Of a stretch of DNA of 64,000 bases, positions 12,444 to 63,507 are shown piece after piece (position 1 is the stretch's first letter; each line of letters opens with the position of its first letter). Origin of the DNA: Sulfolobus sp. A20 (GTDB taxonomy: Archaea > Thermoproteota > Thermoprotei_A > Sulfolobales > Sulfolobaceae); NCBI RefSeq assembly GCF_001719125.1, contig NZ_CP017006.1:1116001-1180000 (forward strand), written 5' to 3'. The position numbers and the translations under genes are program-made. Under the pieces are notes generated by a model, which saw only the letters and a program-made list of their open reading frames with translations, was not told the DNA's origin and did no database searches.

Positions 12444-13484
12444 TTGAGCATAATGCAATCTTTAAAACTGACTGAGATGTGCACTCACTGTGGTTTTTGC
12501 TTGGAAACTTGTCCTACCTATGTGGTTACTAGAAATGAGGTTCATTCGCCTAGAGGCAGAATAGAGGCTGTAAGAGCAGGAATAAATAGCATAGGCTTTC
12601 AGACCTGCATGTATTGTAGGTTATGCGAAACAGCTTGCCCTGCTGGTGTTAAATACGGACAAATAATAGTACCTTATAGGAAAAGCGATATAAAACAAAC
12701 AATAATAGAAAAAATGTTAGAAAACCCATCTATATTTTCTAGAGTTTTAAAAACTATGAATAGAATTGATCACCCAGATATAAGGAGATTTATGGAGTTT
12801 GTAGGTAATGTTGAGGTTAATTCGCCTCTTGAAGGCCAGAAAGGAGAAGGAAAAGAAGAGATAATATTATTTCCAGGCTGTATAGAGTCTATTTTCTTTA
12901 GAAGGACTGTTGAGAAAGCTTTCAATTACTTAAGTAAATACTACAAGGTGAAAATCATCAATGGATGTTGTGGATTAGCCCACATAAGTAATGGGAACTA
13001 TAAGGGAGCAGAGAACTTGGCTAAGAAGCTCCATGAGAAGATTAAGGATAAGAAAATTGTACTTCTTCAATCTAATTGCTCAGCGTTCATGAAAGAATAT
13101 AGTGAATTATTTGGCATTAATCTACACGTTTATGACTTCTCAGAATTCATTGTTAAAGAGAATTTGGAAGTTCCAAGGAGAGAGGGAGTTTTTACTATTC
13201 ATTACCCATGTCATGCGTATAGGCAGAAGCTAACCAGATATATTAAGGAGGTTTCTGAGAAAATGGGGCTAGAAATAAGGGAGATGGAAGATCCCTTCTT
13301 TGAGTGTGGAGCTGGTGGTGATTACTGGTTGACCCATCCTAAACTCTCTGATATGGTGAGAAGTGTAAAGAGAGAAAAGATAGAGAAAAGTGGTGTGAGG
13401 AGAGTTATAGCTACAAATAGTATTTGTGCCCTATCTATTAGGTCAATGGGATTTGACGTATTTCATATAGCAGACTTCTTGTAG
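12444..13484 (+). CDS. glcF: Iron-sulfur CCG-domain protein, GlcF/GlpC-like
   Basis: The 346-residue protein has two N-terminal [4Fe-4S] motifs, CX2CX2CX3CP at Cys13-Cys23 and Cys55-Cys65. Two cysteine-rich CCG domains follow (GCCGLAHISNGNYKGAENL and ECGAGGDYWLTHP). This is the electron-transfer subunit of glycolate oxidase or related dehydrogenases, feeding quinone or HdrD-type partners. It starts at TTG two bases after the GlcD stop, so translation is likely coupled. The second CCG motif reads ECGAG rather than CCG, common in the family. Confidence 0.86.
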   Translation: MSIMQSLKLTEMCTHCGFCLETCPTYVVTRNEVHSPRGRIEAVRAGINSIGFQTCMYCRLCETACPAGVKYGQIIVPYRKSDIKQTIIEKMLENPSIFSRVLKTMNRIDHPDIRRFMEFVGNVEVNSPLEGQKGEGKEEIILFPGCIESIFFRRTVEKAFNYLSKYYKVKIINGCCGLAHISNGNYKGAENLAKKLHEKIKDKKIVLLQSNCSAFMKEYSELFGINLHVYDFSEFIVKENLEVPRREGVFTIHYPCHAYRQKLTRYIKEVSEKMGLEIREMEDPFFECGAGGDYWLTHPKLSDMVRSVKREKIEKSGVRRVIATNSICALSIRSMGFDVFHIADFL

Positions 13485-13501
13485 TCATTTTTCCGTTCCT
13501 A

Positions 13502-13700
13502 CTGACTTCCTCTAAATGGCTAGTGTTCCCTTAGTGAATTTCACAAGTTCCTCTCATCGATTTATGTTTACGTATCTCATACGAGGGGGTAGTCGTGATG
13601 GTCAGAGACCCTCTCCCATTTGGCTTATACAAATAAAGGGGTAGAAAACTTATACACTTTACCATCCCCGCCATTAAGAGCTAGGCATTCCTTCCGTTCC
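13502..13700 (-). mobile_element. tnpB-less IS200/IS605-type remnant (~200 bp) ending inside lplA
   Basis: The minus-oriented element has a right end (reverse complement of ctgacttcctct) at 13502 and a degenerate left end near 13690-13700. Inside it are GGCGGGGATGG, then a TATA-like GTGTATAAG and the CTCTGACC and ATGAGA blocks shared with the element at 61038-61818. There is no tnpB. An 11-bp direct repeat, TTCCGTTCCTA, lies at 13491-13501 and 13692-13702. The left end supplies the last codons and stop of lplA. Without it the frame would run through the downstream repeat copy to AAA TGA. Confidence 0.6.
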
Positions 13701-14477
13701 TAGTAAGTTCCACTTATCAGTTGAGTATTTTATCTTATACAGTTGGTGCGATAATTCCATTTCTGCTGGGGTAATACTTCCGAAAAACACTTCTTCATTT
13801 AGTGCCTTGGCAAATCCTTCTATTAACGCGTTAGTTACTTGACTTATACTAGCATCTACGTATTCATAAAGTCCTGCTATTCTGCTTTTTAAGAACTCGG
13901 GAGTCACGCCTTGCATTTTAATTACTTTTAACCATGTGTCTGGTTCAAAATTTAGAAGGAGTGTTCCATGTTGGAGTAGTGCCTTATCATCCCTTACTTG
14001 AGCTGAGCCAGAAATCTTTCTCCCATCTATTATCACATCACTTGAACCGCTCCTAAGATAACATAAGTTATGTTTTTCCCTATCCCCTAATCCTTTTATT
14101 CTAACATCTCTGCCCAAGATAGTTAAAGCATTAAGTATTCCCTTAGCTATTTCTGAGGCTGATTCATCTACACTCAACTTTCCTATCTTATGCTCTAAGG
14201 AAAGTACTACACTATATGTGATCTCATAATTTTCTGGATGTAATAAAGCACCTCCTCCAGTAGGTCTTCTAACCAGTTTATAGCCCAACTCCTTTATGGC
14301 ATTCAAGTTTACTGTTCTTTCAGCACTCTGTGCTCTTCCTAAACTAACTCCAGAAGGAGACCACATATATAGTCTTAACGTATCATAATTAACGTTTTTA
14401 CGAGATCTCATTATAGCTTCATCAATAGCCATGTTGTATTGTGGATCCCTAACCGCATCAATTATTACCCTTAACAT
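13674..14477 (-). CDS. lplA: Lipoate-protein ligase A, C-terminus altered by an element
   Basis: The 267-residue enzyme of the LplA/LipB/BirA fold adenylates lipoate and attaches it to lipoyl domains. The conserved [11 protein letters not shown] is at residues 70-80 and the catalytic Lys at about 154 in [10 protein letters not shown], followed by LLQHGTLLL. It overlaps the end of lipA by 20 bases and belongs to the lipoyl-domain-lipA-lplA operon. The final residues GMPSS and the stop appear to come from the inserted element end. Reconstruction gives an original ending of LLGTEK. The catalytic core is intact, so activity is probably unaffected. Confidence 0.87.
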
Positions 14478-16957: not shown

Positions 16958-17587
16958 GCGTTAATCTCGACGTATGTAAAAATAAAGTTATTTTTTATGA
17001 GAGGACTTGTCAGAGCATGCTCTAAAAATATTATTAGCATGGATCTTCAACGTTTTCACTTATAGATAAAGTAGTTCTCGAATGTCATGTATTAAGGAAC
17101 CATACATAAAGTTGATAAAATGAGGAAAGCCTCGCCATTCCTGGCAGGGAGGAAGTCAACAAGTGAGACGAGTATCCTAAGATTAGAATCTCCTCGTATA
17201 AATCATCTTATGAAACTTGGTGAATATAATTTTAGAGGGTAAATTTGGAGAAACTGGAGAAAAGCGTGAACATAATAATATCTAATCTAAACATTATACC
17301 ATAAATAGTTCGGAGGTATATTAAGATAGATCTTGTTAATAAAATAACACAAATGTCTAACTTTTTATAATGTTTTCCCGTGAGTAAGAGGGTGTTAATG
17401 AGATTTTTTAAAATAAAATAATAAAATATATTAAAATAATTTCTAATAAAATGTGTCACTATTGAAAGTATTTGTTAAAACAATATAATCAAATCTTGGA
17501 CCACATAAAAGCAGAAGTACAAATGTATAAAAACATACATATCCTACTTATATCTTTCCTAAAGCATAATTATAATTGGTGATCAGG
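16958..17587. other. Intergenic region with one solo element
   Basis: Apart from the palindromic element at 17115-17159, I see AT-rich DNA with no convincing gene. A minus-strand 75-codon frame (17232-17459) is rich in Phe, Ile, Leu and Tyr and looks spurious. The promoter of the gene at 17588 should lie near 17540-17575. Confidence 0.45.
17115..17159 (+). repeat. Solo IS605-type end palindrome
   Basis: A 45-bp sequence starts with a left-end match (ATGAGGAAAGCCTCGCC) and ends with a right-end match (GGGAGGAAGTCAA). The GCCTCGCC / GGCAGGGAGG arms can fold into a hairpin. It has no coding capacity. It matches the extreme ends of the tnpB element at 61038-61818 joined directly together. Confidence 0.65.
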
Positions 17588-23782: not shown

Positions 23783-23973
23783 TTATAAGGTAAGAAAAAC
23801 CTCGCAGAGTAGAAATGGCAAAGAGTCTAAAAAAATCAATTCTACACGCAGATGGGAGGGATTGTCTGAGCTTTTTAACTGCCCCTCATATGAGAGATGT
23901 AGTCCCGAATCAAGAGGGAAACTAATAAGACGCCTAAGGAAAAGCACGTCCCTTAGAGCGAGGAGGAAGTCAG
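23783..23973 (+). mobile_element. tnpB-less IS605-type element (copy A, ~190 bp)
   Basis: The left end (degenerate, ...AAAACCTCGCAGAGTAG) starts soon after the LutB stop and the right end GAGGAGGAAGTCAG finishes at 23973. Internal blocks are GTCTGAGC, the CCTCATATGAGAGATG stretch and GAATCAAGAGGGAAAC. About 170 bases match copy B at 30248-30433 nearly base for base. The left region also aligns with the tnpB element at 61038-61818. It has no real open frame. It may retain a guide-RNA-like scaffold. Confidence 0.7.
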
Positions 23974-24848: not shown

Positions 24849-25481
24849 ATTTTAACCAATATAGTCTAACCATAAAAAGTTTTTCAATATAACGTAGAAA
24901 AGGGAAGAATAAGAAACAATTCAAAATTAACCATTTATTACGTGTTTAAAATGAAAAGATGAGAGATGAATAAAATGGATAATAATTTGAATTTAGTTAT
25001 AATCATGGCTTGCGTATCGTTAATCTCCTCATTAGTTGTGATACTTTCCCTCTCCGGAAGAGTTTTATTTTGAAGCATATCATATTCTCTATACTTGCAT
25101 ACCTCTTGTTGTTCGGTAATTAATCTTATACCGATGTGATCAACTTCAGTTTCACGGCTTAAATTCAAGGATCTATATTTGAGGAGGAAATAATAACTCA
25201 TTATATTTTAAGCGCTTCAATCTTGATTAGTTGATTTCCTCCCTGCCTTGAAGAGCGAGGCTTTCCTCATTTTGTAATAGTGGTTCATTGAGCAGGTTAA
25301 GTGTTTCAAGACGACTGAGTCCACTGCAGTCATTTATATAGAAAATTAGAGGCCATGTGTCATATTCAATTCCCTAACGCCCTATATAAGTTAAACTTAA
25401 CCTATACCTTAATAACGCCGTTATATTCGTACATAAGTTGATTGAGTAAGAATTTAAAAACTTATATCTGAAAATATTTTT
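24849..25481. other. Intergenic region holding one solo element
   Basis: Contains the palindromic element at 25232-25275 and otherwise AT-rich DNA. A minus-strand open frame of 87 codons (24938-25201) has no recognisable motif. I treat it as probably non-coding. The promoter of the gene at 25482 should lie near 25445-25460 (agaatttaaaaac). Confidence 0.4.
25232..25275 (-). repeat. Solo IS605-type end palindrome
   Basis: A 44-bp minus-oriented element with right end (reverse complement of tgatttcctccc) and left end (reverse complement of gaggctttcctcattttgt). The CCTCGC / GCAGGGAGG arms can pair around a short loop. No coding content. Confidence 0.65.
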
Positions 25482-28730: not shown

Positions 28731-28775
28731 CCGACTTCCTCCTTACCCTTAAGGGTTAGACTTTCCTCATTTTGT
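28731..28775 (-). repeat. Solo IS605-type palindrome upstream of galS
   Basis: A 45-bp element with right end (reverse complement of cgacttcctcct), central palindrome ACCCTTAAGGGT and left end (reverse complement of tttcctcattttgt). Its near edge is 74 bp upstream of the galS ATG, just beyond the likely promoter. Confidence 0.65.
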
Positions 28776-28787
28776 TAAAAAAAAGAA

Positions 28788-29963: not shown

Positions 29964-29975
29964 TAAGTCGTACTT

Positions 29976-30020
29976 ACAAAGTGATGAAAACCTCGCCCTT
30001 TAGGTAGGGGAGGAAGTCAG
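29976..30020 (+). repeat. Solo IS605-type palindrome upstream of araD
   Basis: The 45-bp element runs from ACAAAGTGATGAAAACC to GGAGGAAGTCAG with CTCGCCCTTTAGG between, folding into a hairpin. It lies 67 bp upstream of the araD start in the opposite orientation, mirroring the position of the element upstream of galS. Confidence 0.7.
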
Positions 30021-30247: not shown

Positions 30248-30433
30248 ACAAAGTGAGGAAAGCCTCGCAGAGTAGCAATGGCAAAGAGTCTAAAAAATCA
30301 ATTCTACACGCACATGGGAAGGGTTGTCTGAGCTTTTTAACTGCCCCTCATATGAGAGATGTATTCCTGAATCGAAGAGAGAAACTAATAAGACGCCATA
30401 TTGGAACCCTCCTCTTTTAGGGAATAGAGGAAA
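30248..30433 (+). mobile_element. tnpB-less IS605-type element (copy B)
   Basis: Left end ACAAAGTGAGGAAAGCC at 30248, then the same internal blocks as copy A (GCAGAGTAG, TTTTTAACTGCCCCTCATAT, ACTAATAAGACGCC). The right end is degenerate (GAGGAAACTGA). It is followed at once by another element in the opposite orientation at 30434. Near-identity with copy A over about 160 bases suggests recent mobility or gene conversion. Confidence 0.72.
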
Positions 30434-30479
30434 CTGACCTCCTCCTCGCCCTAAAGGACGAGGCTCGTCTTTCCTTTGT
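30434..30479 (-). repeat. Solo IS605-type palindrome abutting copy B
   Basis: A 46-bp inverted-orientation element (ctgacctcctcctcgcc to gtctttcctttgt) carrying the palindromic core CCTAAAGGACGAGG. It directly follows copy B tail to tail, making a compound remnant. Confidence 0.6.
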
Positions 30480-30546
30480 CAGATATGTCTCTTAGTACCA
30501 GCCCCTAAAGACTATTGCTTATTAACTTCTCATTTAAATTTATTAT

Positions 30547-34422: not shown

Positions 34423-34471
34423 TTGTTAAATCTTTCTTAGCTAAGGAAAAATATTAGGATTAGGAACTTGC

Positions 34472-34619
34472 CTGACTTCCTTCCCCTTAGGGAATTTCCC
34501 TCATCAATTCTCATTTGAGTGGAGGTCTAGAGGCTCAGAGAACTCCTTCCTTCAGCATATAGAATTAGCTTTAAATACTTTTATCCCCGCCCTAAAGGGC
34601 AAAGCTTTCCTCACTTTGT
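34472..34619 (-). mobile_element. tnpB-less IS605-type element (148 bp) with intact ends
   Basis: Minus-oriented. The left end, read on the minus strand, is ACAAAGTGAGGAAAGC near 34619, then GGCGGGGATAAAAGTATTTAAA (TATA-like) near 34580. The right end is AGGGGAAGGAAGTCAG at 34472. Conserved blocks CTCTGAGCC, ATGAGAATTGATGAGGGAAA lie between. The layout (left-end TATA, scaffold blocks, right end) is that of a mini element able to produce a short RNA, but no tnpB is present. Confidence 0.7.
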
Positions 34620-34710
34620 AAGTGATTACTTTATACTACCTTTAAAGTATTATTCTGTATCTATTATATATAAATCCAAAAACTTATCAATTCATATGAT
34701 AATAAGGTAT

Positions 34711-42226: not shown

Positions 42227-42575
42227 CTCATTTAAAACACAAGTAAGAATTAGATCACTTCTGGTTCTTTGCGGATCTTCAGTATGGAAGTCGAACTCCC
42301 TTGGATAAAGCGTTAATTTAATATCGGCTAACTATTGTGACTATTATTCGCATATCTGACCTTCTTCTCCGCCTAAAGGCTTTCCTCTTTTTGTCACAAT
42401 CTATTACTAATGTCATTATATACAAATTAAAATATTTCACCATATTTTGTATTTTAGCTAGCTAACTGCTATTACGCCATGTCTCTTCTACACATTAGTG
42501 TTTAAATTTATTTTATATTTGTTAAACGAATAAATAGGGAGTAAAGTTATAGCTAAGGTTGAGTTAGTTTATACT
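42227..42575. other. Intergenic region with one solo element and treT promoter
   Basis: Includes the solo palindrome at 42356-42394. No other gene seen. The treT promoter should lie close to 42545-42570. Confidence 0.45.
42356..42394 (-). repeat. Solo IS605-type palindrome (39 bp)
   Basis: Right end (reverse complement of ctgaccttcttctccgcc) and left end (reverse complement of ggctttcctctttttgt), with no insert other than TAAA between. It is the shortest member of the family in the window. Confidence 0.55.
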
Positions 42576-51229: not shown

Positions 51230-51654
51230 AAATAAAAATTACATTTGATTGTTTATAAAACTAACTTCTTTATATCTAGAATAATTAAATAATGTGGATA
51301 AAAAGAATAATGATATAAAAATATGCAAACAAAGTTCTATACACTTAGTATACTCTATTTGGAGTGAAGCTACGAATTTACAAAGTAGGGGAACCCTAGC
51401 CATTTATGGCGGGGAGAAAGCCAGATTAGCACTTTATCCATTTCATTATTCTTTATATTAATTCATCTAATTAATAGTAATTATCCCGATTTAACTATTT
51501 CCATTTAATATATATCATCTTACAAATATAAAAATTTTTAATTTTGATATTTGAGTTATAATAGCAATTTTTAAGCTTAATTATAGGAAGTTATTCTTAA
51601 TATGATCCAATTGAAAAATGTTTATTACAAAAAGCTTTTTACTTTAAAAGGAAA
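51230..51654. other. Intergenic region with one solo element
   Basis: Contains the solo palindrome at 51380-51424 plus AT-rich DNA. No gene supported. A TATA-like ctttttactttaaaag close to 51628-51648 could serve the gene at 51655. Confidence 0.45.
51380..51424 (+). repeat. Solo IS605-type palindrome (diverged copy)
   Basis: A 45-bp sequence from ACAAAGTAGGGGAACCC to GGGGAGAAAGCCAG with the arms CCCTAGCCATTTATGGCGGGG. It differs more from consensus than most copies, so probably older. Confidence 0.6.
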
Positions 51655-61037: not shown

Positions 61038-61818
61038 CTGACTTCCCCCCATTGGAGAGTTCCCCTAATTGATTCGTGTTTACCTCTCTCATGTGTCGAA
61101 AGGATCAGAGAATCATAAAGGTTTATTATACGTCCCTATCATTCTCATAACAATTAACACAACGAAAGTATCTATAAGTAACCTCTTTCATTTGCTACAC
61201 TTATAACAATGAGTAGTAGATGAGAAACTAGGGTCAACATAAACAACCTTAAGACCATGCTTCTTTGCCTTTCACTCAATCCAATATTGTTCAACACTTA
61301 TATACTTTAAAAGGAAAGAGATAAAGTGATAAATTCCTTGGATAACCTAGTATTGGCAACTCACCAATAACCCTAGTCCACACAACCATCCTCTCAAAGT
61401 CTAACTTATATGAGATATAAGGGGTTAACCTAACTGATACTTTACGTATTCTAGGATACCTAACCTCCTTAGGGTTCTTTAGCCAACCCTTGTATATTAC
61501 TATAGCATCCCTATAATAGCCTTGAGCTAACTTAGGGTGTAGGTTAAACTTTTCCTTTAAAATTTCATAAGCTGCCTTATGAACTTCCTTGATTAAGTTC
61601 TTCTTTAGCTTATTTTCCCTCAACCAATTGAGAACATATTTTAACCCTCTCTCATATGTTTCAACAAGGCTGAGCAGGGAAGCGATGTGAGAATCATGAG
61701 GCTAGTTGTAGCTATTTATTCCTAACCACCGTTCATACTGGCTTCTCTACTTACAGATGAAGAGAAAAGAGTTTATATACTTTGTCATCCCCACTCTGTG
61801 AGGCTTTCCTCCATTTGT
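61038..61818 (-). mobile_element. IS200/IS605-type element with decayed tnpB (781 bp)
   Basis: Minus-oriented. Right end (minus strand GGGGGGAAGTCAG) at 61038, left end ACAAATGGAGGAAAGCC at 61818. The left end carries a TATA-like AGTATATAAAC for tnpB. No tnpA. Full-length elements of this kind carry a tnpB of about 400 codons, so this one lacks at least 600 bases. It defines the family to which the smaller remnants belong. Confidence 0.82.
61126..61698 (-). pseudogene. tnpB: Degenerate, internally deleted tnpB (OrfB)
   Basis: Two parts survive. The N-terminal part, about residues 10-130 by comparison, reads ASLLSLVETYERGLKYVLNW and runs to a break near 61291, including LDFERMVVW and GELPILGYPRNLS. 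The C-terminal part, 61126-61285, shows WIE*KAKKHGLKVVYVDP then the zinc-finger remnant with premature stops (TGG to TGA twice) and a frameshift before YRYFRCVNC. The RuvC catalytic segment between them is gone, so no nuclease can be made. Confidence 0.8.
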
Positions 61819-63022: not shown

Positions 63023-63507
63023 CTCACGAATTTTAGCTTATATTATTTTTATTATGCTAAATTGTAGCTTCTTTTTGAACGAAATTGTTTAACCTCTAAA
63101 CCCTAAAAATTTAGCACTATAACAGATACTTCAATCCATTAAACTGCTCATATACTTAGTTTTTGAAAACAAATGAGAAGTATCTTAAATTACAAAGTTG
63201 AGGAAAGCCTCTATAGCGGTGAGGAAGTCAGTGGCTTTCAGACTATATCTATTCTAAGTAATCCTATATAATGTAATTATTGAGGTTTATATTATACGTT
63301 GTAGACTTAATCAATGCCAAGAATTGTAATATCGTGATTAGAGTATACGAGTAGCGCATATTTTTTATATCTTACATATACCTAACTTATATTTTTACGA
63401 TGTAACGGTAACTAAGAATTGATAATGTTTTTATTATATATTGATAATATCATTACATTTAAGCTCAATTAATTTTTAGAAATATTGGTATATATAATAT
63501 TTAATTT
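63023..63507. other. Intergenic region with one solo element
   Basis: Contains the solo palindrome at 63192-63231 and otherwise AT-rich DNA. No gene supported. Confidence 0.45.
63192..63231 (+). repeat. Solo IS605-type palindrome (40 bp)
   Basis: ACAAAGTTGAGGAAAGCCTC and AGCGGTGAGGAAGTCAG back to back, separated only by TAT. Flanked on the left by TT like most copies. Confidence 0.65.

Follow-up and report, generated by a model that had tools for sequence, protein, structure and literature searches.

Elements without tnpB in Sulfolobus sp. A20 as probable remains of free-standing TnpB guide-RNA genes, with intact relatives in other genomes and in virus STSV4

Short elements that lack tnpB and still keep the right-end block of a tnpB-bearing element raise the question of whether they act, or once acted, as guide-RNA genes of their own. 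The window analyzed here (64 kb, bases 1116001-1180000 of one 2.69-Mb contig) holds four such copies and one tnpB-bearing element, all with a common left end (TTAC/AAAGTGAGGAAAGCCTCGCC..GGCGGGGA, the slash marking the element boundary), a TATA-like box, and a right-end block, and the right-end motif GGAGGAAGTCAG occurs nine times with at most one mismatch, compared with 0.1 expected. Each element is built of a left end after TTAC, a TATA box, an omega-RNA scaffold, and the right end GTCAG (Table 1); the position of TTAC was read from the sequences, since automatic left-end calls are often a few bases off. The preliminary description, which had reported that the four copies keep blocks of the tnpB element together with a left-end TATA box, was correct in both respects, and the boundaries had to be adjusted (the 148-bp copy lies on the minus strand and ends at 34617, copy A starts at 23787, copy B at 30250, and the tnpB-bearing element ends at 61816).

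Eight further copies in the window consist of a left-end hairpin joined directly to a GGAGGAAGTCAG-like tail and mostly measure 46-47 nt, target motif included. A 46-nt terminal-only copy at L005:1317-1362 is apparently inserted beside or into another left end, forming a nested arrangement. Copy B is 94% identical to copy A across 82 nt, and its lost right end adjoins the inverted terminal-only copy. At the 13.5-kb copy (13470-13725, minus strand), an 11-bp direct repeat, TAGGAACGGAA, follows both the left TTAC and the right GTCAG; because IS200/IS605 insertion should not duplicate the target, this left end may have been remade. An Rfam search of the window at the gathering threshold gave no match, nor did a plasmid search with the 148-bp copy as the query.

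Table 1. Element copies and their parts in the window (positions counted from its first base), with the HgcC alignments discussed in the text
Feature	Position	Strand	Remark
148-bp copy, tnpB-less (left end, TATA box, scaffold, right end)	34472..34617	-	
Scaffold part of the 148-bp copy, middle deleted	34472..34550	-	R1 E 4.5e-8
TATA-like box TATTTAAA of the 148-bp copy	34570..34577	-	centre about 23 nt before scaffold start
TTAC at the left end of the 148-bp copy	34618..34621	-	outside the element; expected target/TAM motif
Would-be guide flank of the 148-bp copy (GCAAGTTCC...)	34452..34471	-	predicted from viral-element anatomy
13.5-kb copy, second tnpB-less copy	13502..13702	-	R1 E 1.4e-10
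Copy A, tnpB-less	23787..23973	+	R1 E 2.8e-9
Copy B, tnpB-less, lacking the right end	30250..30429	+	R1 E 5.8e-8
tnpB-bearing element, pseudogene with stops	61038..61816	-	weaker R1 match, E 3.5e-4
Terminal-only copy (left-end hairpin joined to right-end tail)	17113..17159	+	
Terminal-only copy	29974..30020	+	
Terminal-only copy	51378..51424	+	
Terminal-only copy	25231..25277	-	
Terminal-only copy	28731..28777	-	
Terminal-only copy, inverted, beside copy B	30434..30481	-	
Terminal-only copy, shortened	42356..42396	-	
Terminal-only copy	63190..63231	+	
HgcC alignments	L280:938-1071; L293:1003-1134	-	37.7 and 41.1 bits; both below 50

To assess the nature of the right-end block, 38 right ends linked to tnpB were aligned, all of them taken from other genomes of the same family and none from this genome. 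The alignment contains three main and two short helices comprising 26 pairs, 11 of which show double-sided changes, with 97.9% of cells paired; this level of pairing was reached by none of 500 shuffles, and the signal collapses when the partners are slid against each other. R1, a covariance model built from these 38 right ends only, finds the tnpB-less window copies at E values of 1.4e-10 to 5.8e-8. In intact relatives (e.g. locus L081, whose protein P0001 is an NCBIfam guided_TnpB), the scaffold overlaps the last tnpB codons and ends at the right end, so that the anatomy of an omega-RNA is present at the level of the family, its structure being degraded in the window copies. The shared fold proposed as a test of the scaffold idea thus holds for the family, which shows covariation, whereas shuffled sequences fold as well as the individual window copies (z from -0.6 to +1.4 for five scaffolds), and most of them fold better than the scaffold of the 148-bp copy (z +1.4). 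A pristine tnpB-less copy elsewhere in the genome (L194) adopts the family structure (z = -3.4). Taken from sequence, these data support the earlier identification of the retained block as the scaffold of a TnpB guide RNA, and the adjoining flank would be the guide.

R1 matches at E <=0.01 are found at 52 places in this genome, and tnpB is absent in 21 among the best 30 of these 52 matches; scaffold-bearing tnpB-less copies therefore number at least 21, all copy counts being lower bounds. In most of these 21, a left end lies no more than about 130 nt upstream, and 20 tnpB-less copies fit one consensus; in most of the 20, a common AAAAGCCAATTCTATATGCAGAT-like linker joins the TATA box to the scaffold. 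Since a common linker is unexpected from independent deletions, the tnpB-less form has been amplified as a family. The TATA centre precedes the scaffold by a median of 23 nt in the compact copies, to which this spacing is confined because automatic TATA calls are noisy on extended elements, and a transcript would accordingly start at about the beginning of the scaffold. Another TnpB family of this genome (L006, L008, L010, L014, L019) ends in a right-end tail of the type seen here, GGGCGGGGAGGAGGTCAG, and differs in the sequence upstream of it; L008 contains a 383-aa open frame with its start in another frame.

The window copies are non-autonomous, PATE-like IS200/IS605 elements: they carry no transposase gene, their TnpB remnant is only the short scaffold-coding part, and their ends, with subterminal palindromes, are those of tnpB-carrying IS605-type elements. 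The closest elements in the descriptions available to us are the PATEs of Haloquadratum walsbyi, which the accessible part of the source presents as IS605-derived, lacking a transposase and a target duplication, and bearing near-terminal palindromes (PMC3119063). Within that part, they include terminal-only forms, which resemble our 46-nt copies, and forms with a C-terminal remnant, and neither an RNA role nor a promoter or scaffold is described for them (PMC3119063). Unlike PATEs as described there, the elements studied here retain a guide-RNA scaffold that covaries and follows a TATA box; in relatives, extended forms possess a further 5' RNA domain (PMC3119063).

These extended tnpB-less elements measure about 360 bp and consist of a left end, a TATA box, a structured 5' domain of 110-130 nt, and the scaffold with the right end; the promoter is kept directly upstream of the RNA domains. 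Of 31 genomes of the family, 20 have the 5' domain, and these cover 10 of its 11 genera; a search for it in the present genome found none. One relative (G020) has 35 extended copies and another (G024) has 12; of these 12, nine are 95-99% identical to a tenth over its full length, and L185, an eleventh, matches it across 310 bases. The only Y1 gene of G024 is broken, so that no source of transposase is seen there, which speaks against the element history outlined below. Compensatory changes are seen in a helix of the 5' domain (GGGACU/AGUCCC to GGGAUC/GGAUCC, or the reverse) and in scaffold hairpin 1. In the extended set, paired cells, double-change cells, and score all exceed every shuffle; the number of double-sided pairs does not stand above the shuffles (102/500), and scaffold helix 2 has no double-sided change within this set.

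Two possible sources of the extended form were considered and rejected. A tnpB origin of the additional 5' domain does not fit, since the TnpB alignment covers the scaffold only, and a parent made of tnpA plus scaffold was suggested by a Y1 gene adjoining an extended element in G020, where this gene and the element appear to be distinct neighbors. In G127, a genome that belongs to the same order and to another family, tnpB elements with long TnpB matches occur beside tnpB-less ones; the latter number at least eight, are organized similarly, and have a 5' domain of another kind. At L278-L290 of G127, two different 5' domains precede the same scaffold, some of them with GUGAUGA, which is C box-like.

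We consider that the copies in this genome are probably decayed non-autonomous elements that were once free-standing guide-RNA genes and that have intact mobile versions in relatives and in virus STSV4. Another reading, which we regard as possible rather than probable, is that they are deletion debris or ordinary PATEs, in which the inner scaffold was kept as right-end DNA for TnpA and had no RNA function once tnpB was lost. Transposition, too, depends on right ends, so that their retention need not mean a guide function, and the Haloquadratum forms already mentioned (PMC3119063, as far as that account is accessible), together with 46-nt copies that persist without a scaffold, fit this reading. 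So does the observation that scaffold pairs in the 20 copies of this genome decay as under neutrality, with 243 canonical pairs against a neutral null of 236.4 +/- 5.2 (p = 0.11) and six double canonical changes against 6.0 expected. Against it, the retained block begins, as measured from the right end, at about 70-120 nt, far past the terminal hairpin; extended elements are tnpB-less wherever looked at and show compensatory changes in the 5' domain as well as in hairpin 1 of the scaffold; and the promoter is kept just before the RNA domains.

The insertion behavior assumed for free-standing guide-RNA genes can be followed in a pair of viruses. STSV4 (OP999031) carries an extended element at a place where the near-identical stretch of STSV3 (OP999021) is uninterrupted, with TTTAC/GTAAAGG in STSV3 and TTTAC-element-GTAAAGG in STSV4. 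This comparison places the insertion 3' of TTTAC, without target duplication, as in PATEs, for the extended viral form, and it is here that the role of TTAC as target and TAM is seen; the window copies have no empty-site partner, and their insertion pattern is taken from this related viral element. It follows from the empty site that the STSV4 flank after GTCAG, i.e. the would-be guide, equals the TAM-side sequence in STSV3, a correspondence expected of an omega-RNA and found in STSV4 only. Sulfolobus tengchongensis is the named host of both viruses, and the genome taken as S. tengchongensis (G006) contains open TnpB frames with 52-55% identity to P0001; a TnpB may use the RNA of the STSV4 element. 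More generally, trans use is plausible, judged from sequence, in relatives and in the virus, where intact tnpB-less elements are present. A search of viral contigs with two sequence patterns returned nothing beyond the bicaudavirus ATV.

It had also been proposed that the copies are orphan guide RNAs used in trans by a TnpB elsewhere in this genome. As a present-day function this is very unlikely, and the same holds for use of these guides by another TnpB, such as a small open frame at L001. Two near-perfect scaffolds do exist elsewhere in the genome (the tnpB-less L194 at 113 bits and L152, with a tnpB fragment, at 115 bits), and the 290-aa frame of L001 (a locus at G000:C1:1045464-1045652, minus strand) is TnpB-like, with the RuvC-like motifs IDLGIRH, LEDL, and ADRD. 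Opposed to this, every TnpB copy of the cognate family found in this genome has stops or is a fragment, so that the intact partner expected of a functioning omega-RNA was not found; L001 lies below the guided-TnpB cut-off and has no recognizable right end; and most scaffolds are broken, those of tnpB-less copies being no better kept than those linked to tnpB (no significant difference in score, p = 0.30). Nor was a Y1 TnpA detected in this genome by a search that was positive in 17 of 31 relatives. The missing cognate TnpB and Y1, the neutral decay, and the poor folds together make it unlikely that any TnpB of this strain uses these RNAs in trans today. The L001 protein itself is possibly a domesticated TnpB.

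Among known RNAs, HgcC (RF00062) has in common with the scaffold a first hairpin and a terminal hairpin ending in GGGGAGGAGGUCAG, and its alignments to tnpB-less scaffolds reach at best 41.1 bits, below the Rfam gathering threshold of 50; HgcC is probably a relative of TnpB guide scaffolds. Rfam annotates it as an RNA gene only, with no stated function, and a search for a link between HgcC and TnpB found no paper in the literature covered. Domestication of the scaffold into a regulatory RNA with no connection to TnpB, an idea to which this resemblance to a mere RNA gene lends some color, is hardly credible, since one conserved locus would be predicted and the copies lie at many different sites and decay randomly.

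SisTnpB1 of Sulfolobus islandicus, an archaeal TnpB with an omega-RNA, resembles the present elements in that its IS200/IS605 right end, likewise from Sulfolobales, has hairpins close to the 3' end, in that the guide lies in the flank, and in an AT-rich TAM left of the left end (PMC10640517). It differs in the TAM, which is TTTAA/TTTAT for SisTnpB1 and TTTAC/TTAC here, and in that its RNA is made with its own tnpB, whereas the elements described here are without tnpB (PMC10640517). Haloarchaeal sotRNAs (RF02656/RF02657) also overlap tnpB (PMC12558985). SMN1, a 320-bp S. islandicus MITE, is moved in trans by the ISC1733 transposase according to the accessible part of a source citing Berkner and Lipps 2007 (PMC3718332); by description, it is short and ORF-free like the copies studied here. 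The genome G005 has a single R1 match, and SMN1 is probably another family than the R1-type elements.

The history of the probable former guide-RNA genes may be pictured as follows. When tnpB was lost, an ancestor would have retained both ends, the left one including its promoter, and the complete scaffold; with the promoter directly before the scaffold, an anatomy that is observed, the element would have been transcribed as a free-standing guide-RNA gene, whose guide would be whatever DNA adjoins the landing site. Spread may have taken the single-strand route, presumably with Y1 TnpA acting in trans, and landing would have occurred 3' of TTAC without target duplication, the pattern seen on the related viral element. 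The matching TnpB, while present, was probably directed by the RNA to empty donor sites, which would have helped to keep copies. With both enzymes gone from this genome, the copies would be fossils; intact versions that have moved recently still exist in relatives and in STSV4.

A further-reaching proposal, which we advance only tentatively and think rather unlikely, is that archaeal guide-RNA-only transposons, made up of no more than ends, promoter, additional 5' RNA domain, and TnpB guide scaffold, parasitize TnpA for movement and TnpB for targeting, both in trans, and that an insertion of the STSV4 type arms the host TnpB against sister viruses lacking it. STSV4 offers a natural, ready-made test target, for which the guide, the TAM, and the uninserted sister virus are known (TTTAC, then GTAAAGGAGGTGGTATAATA). 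Trans-encoded omega-RNAs and guide-bearing PATEs have reportedly been mentioned in bacteria, in work by Altae-Tran in 2021 and Meers in 2023, and what is claimed as new is accordingly confined to the extended elements of archaea, the 5' domain that they carry, and the empty site seen in the viruses. If the proposal is true, each insertion would write a new guide, and TnpB guide RNAs would be mobile elements in their own right, apart from the nuclease gene. Such elements could represent a step between omega-RNAs that act in cis and CRISPR-Cas guides that act in trans, and the findings suggest that the Rfam HgcC RNA may be related to TnpB guide scaffolds.
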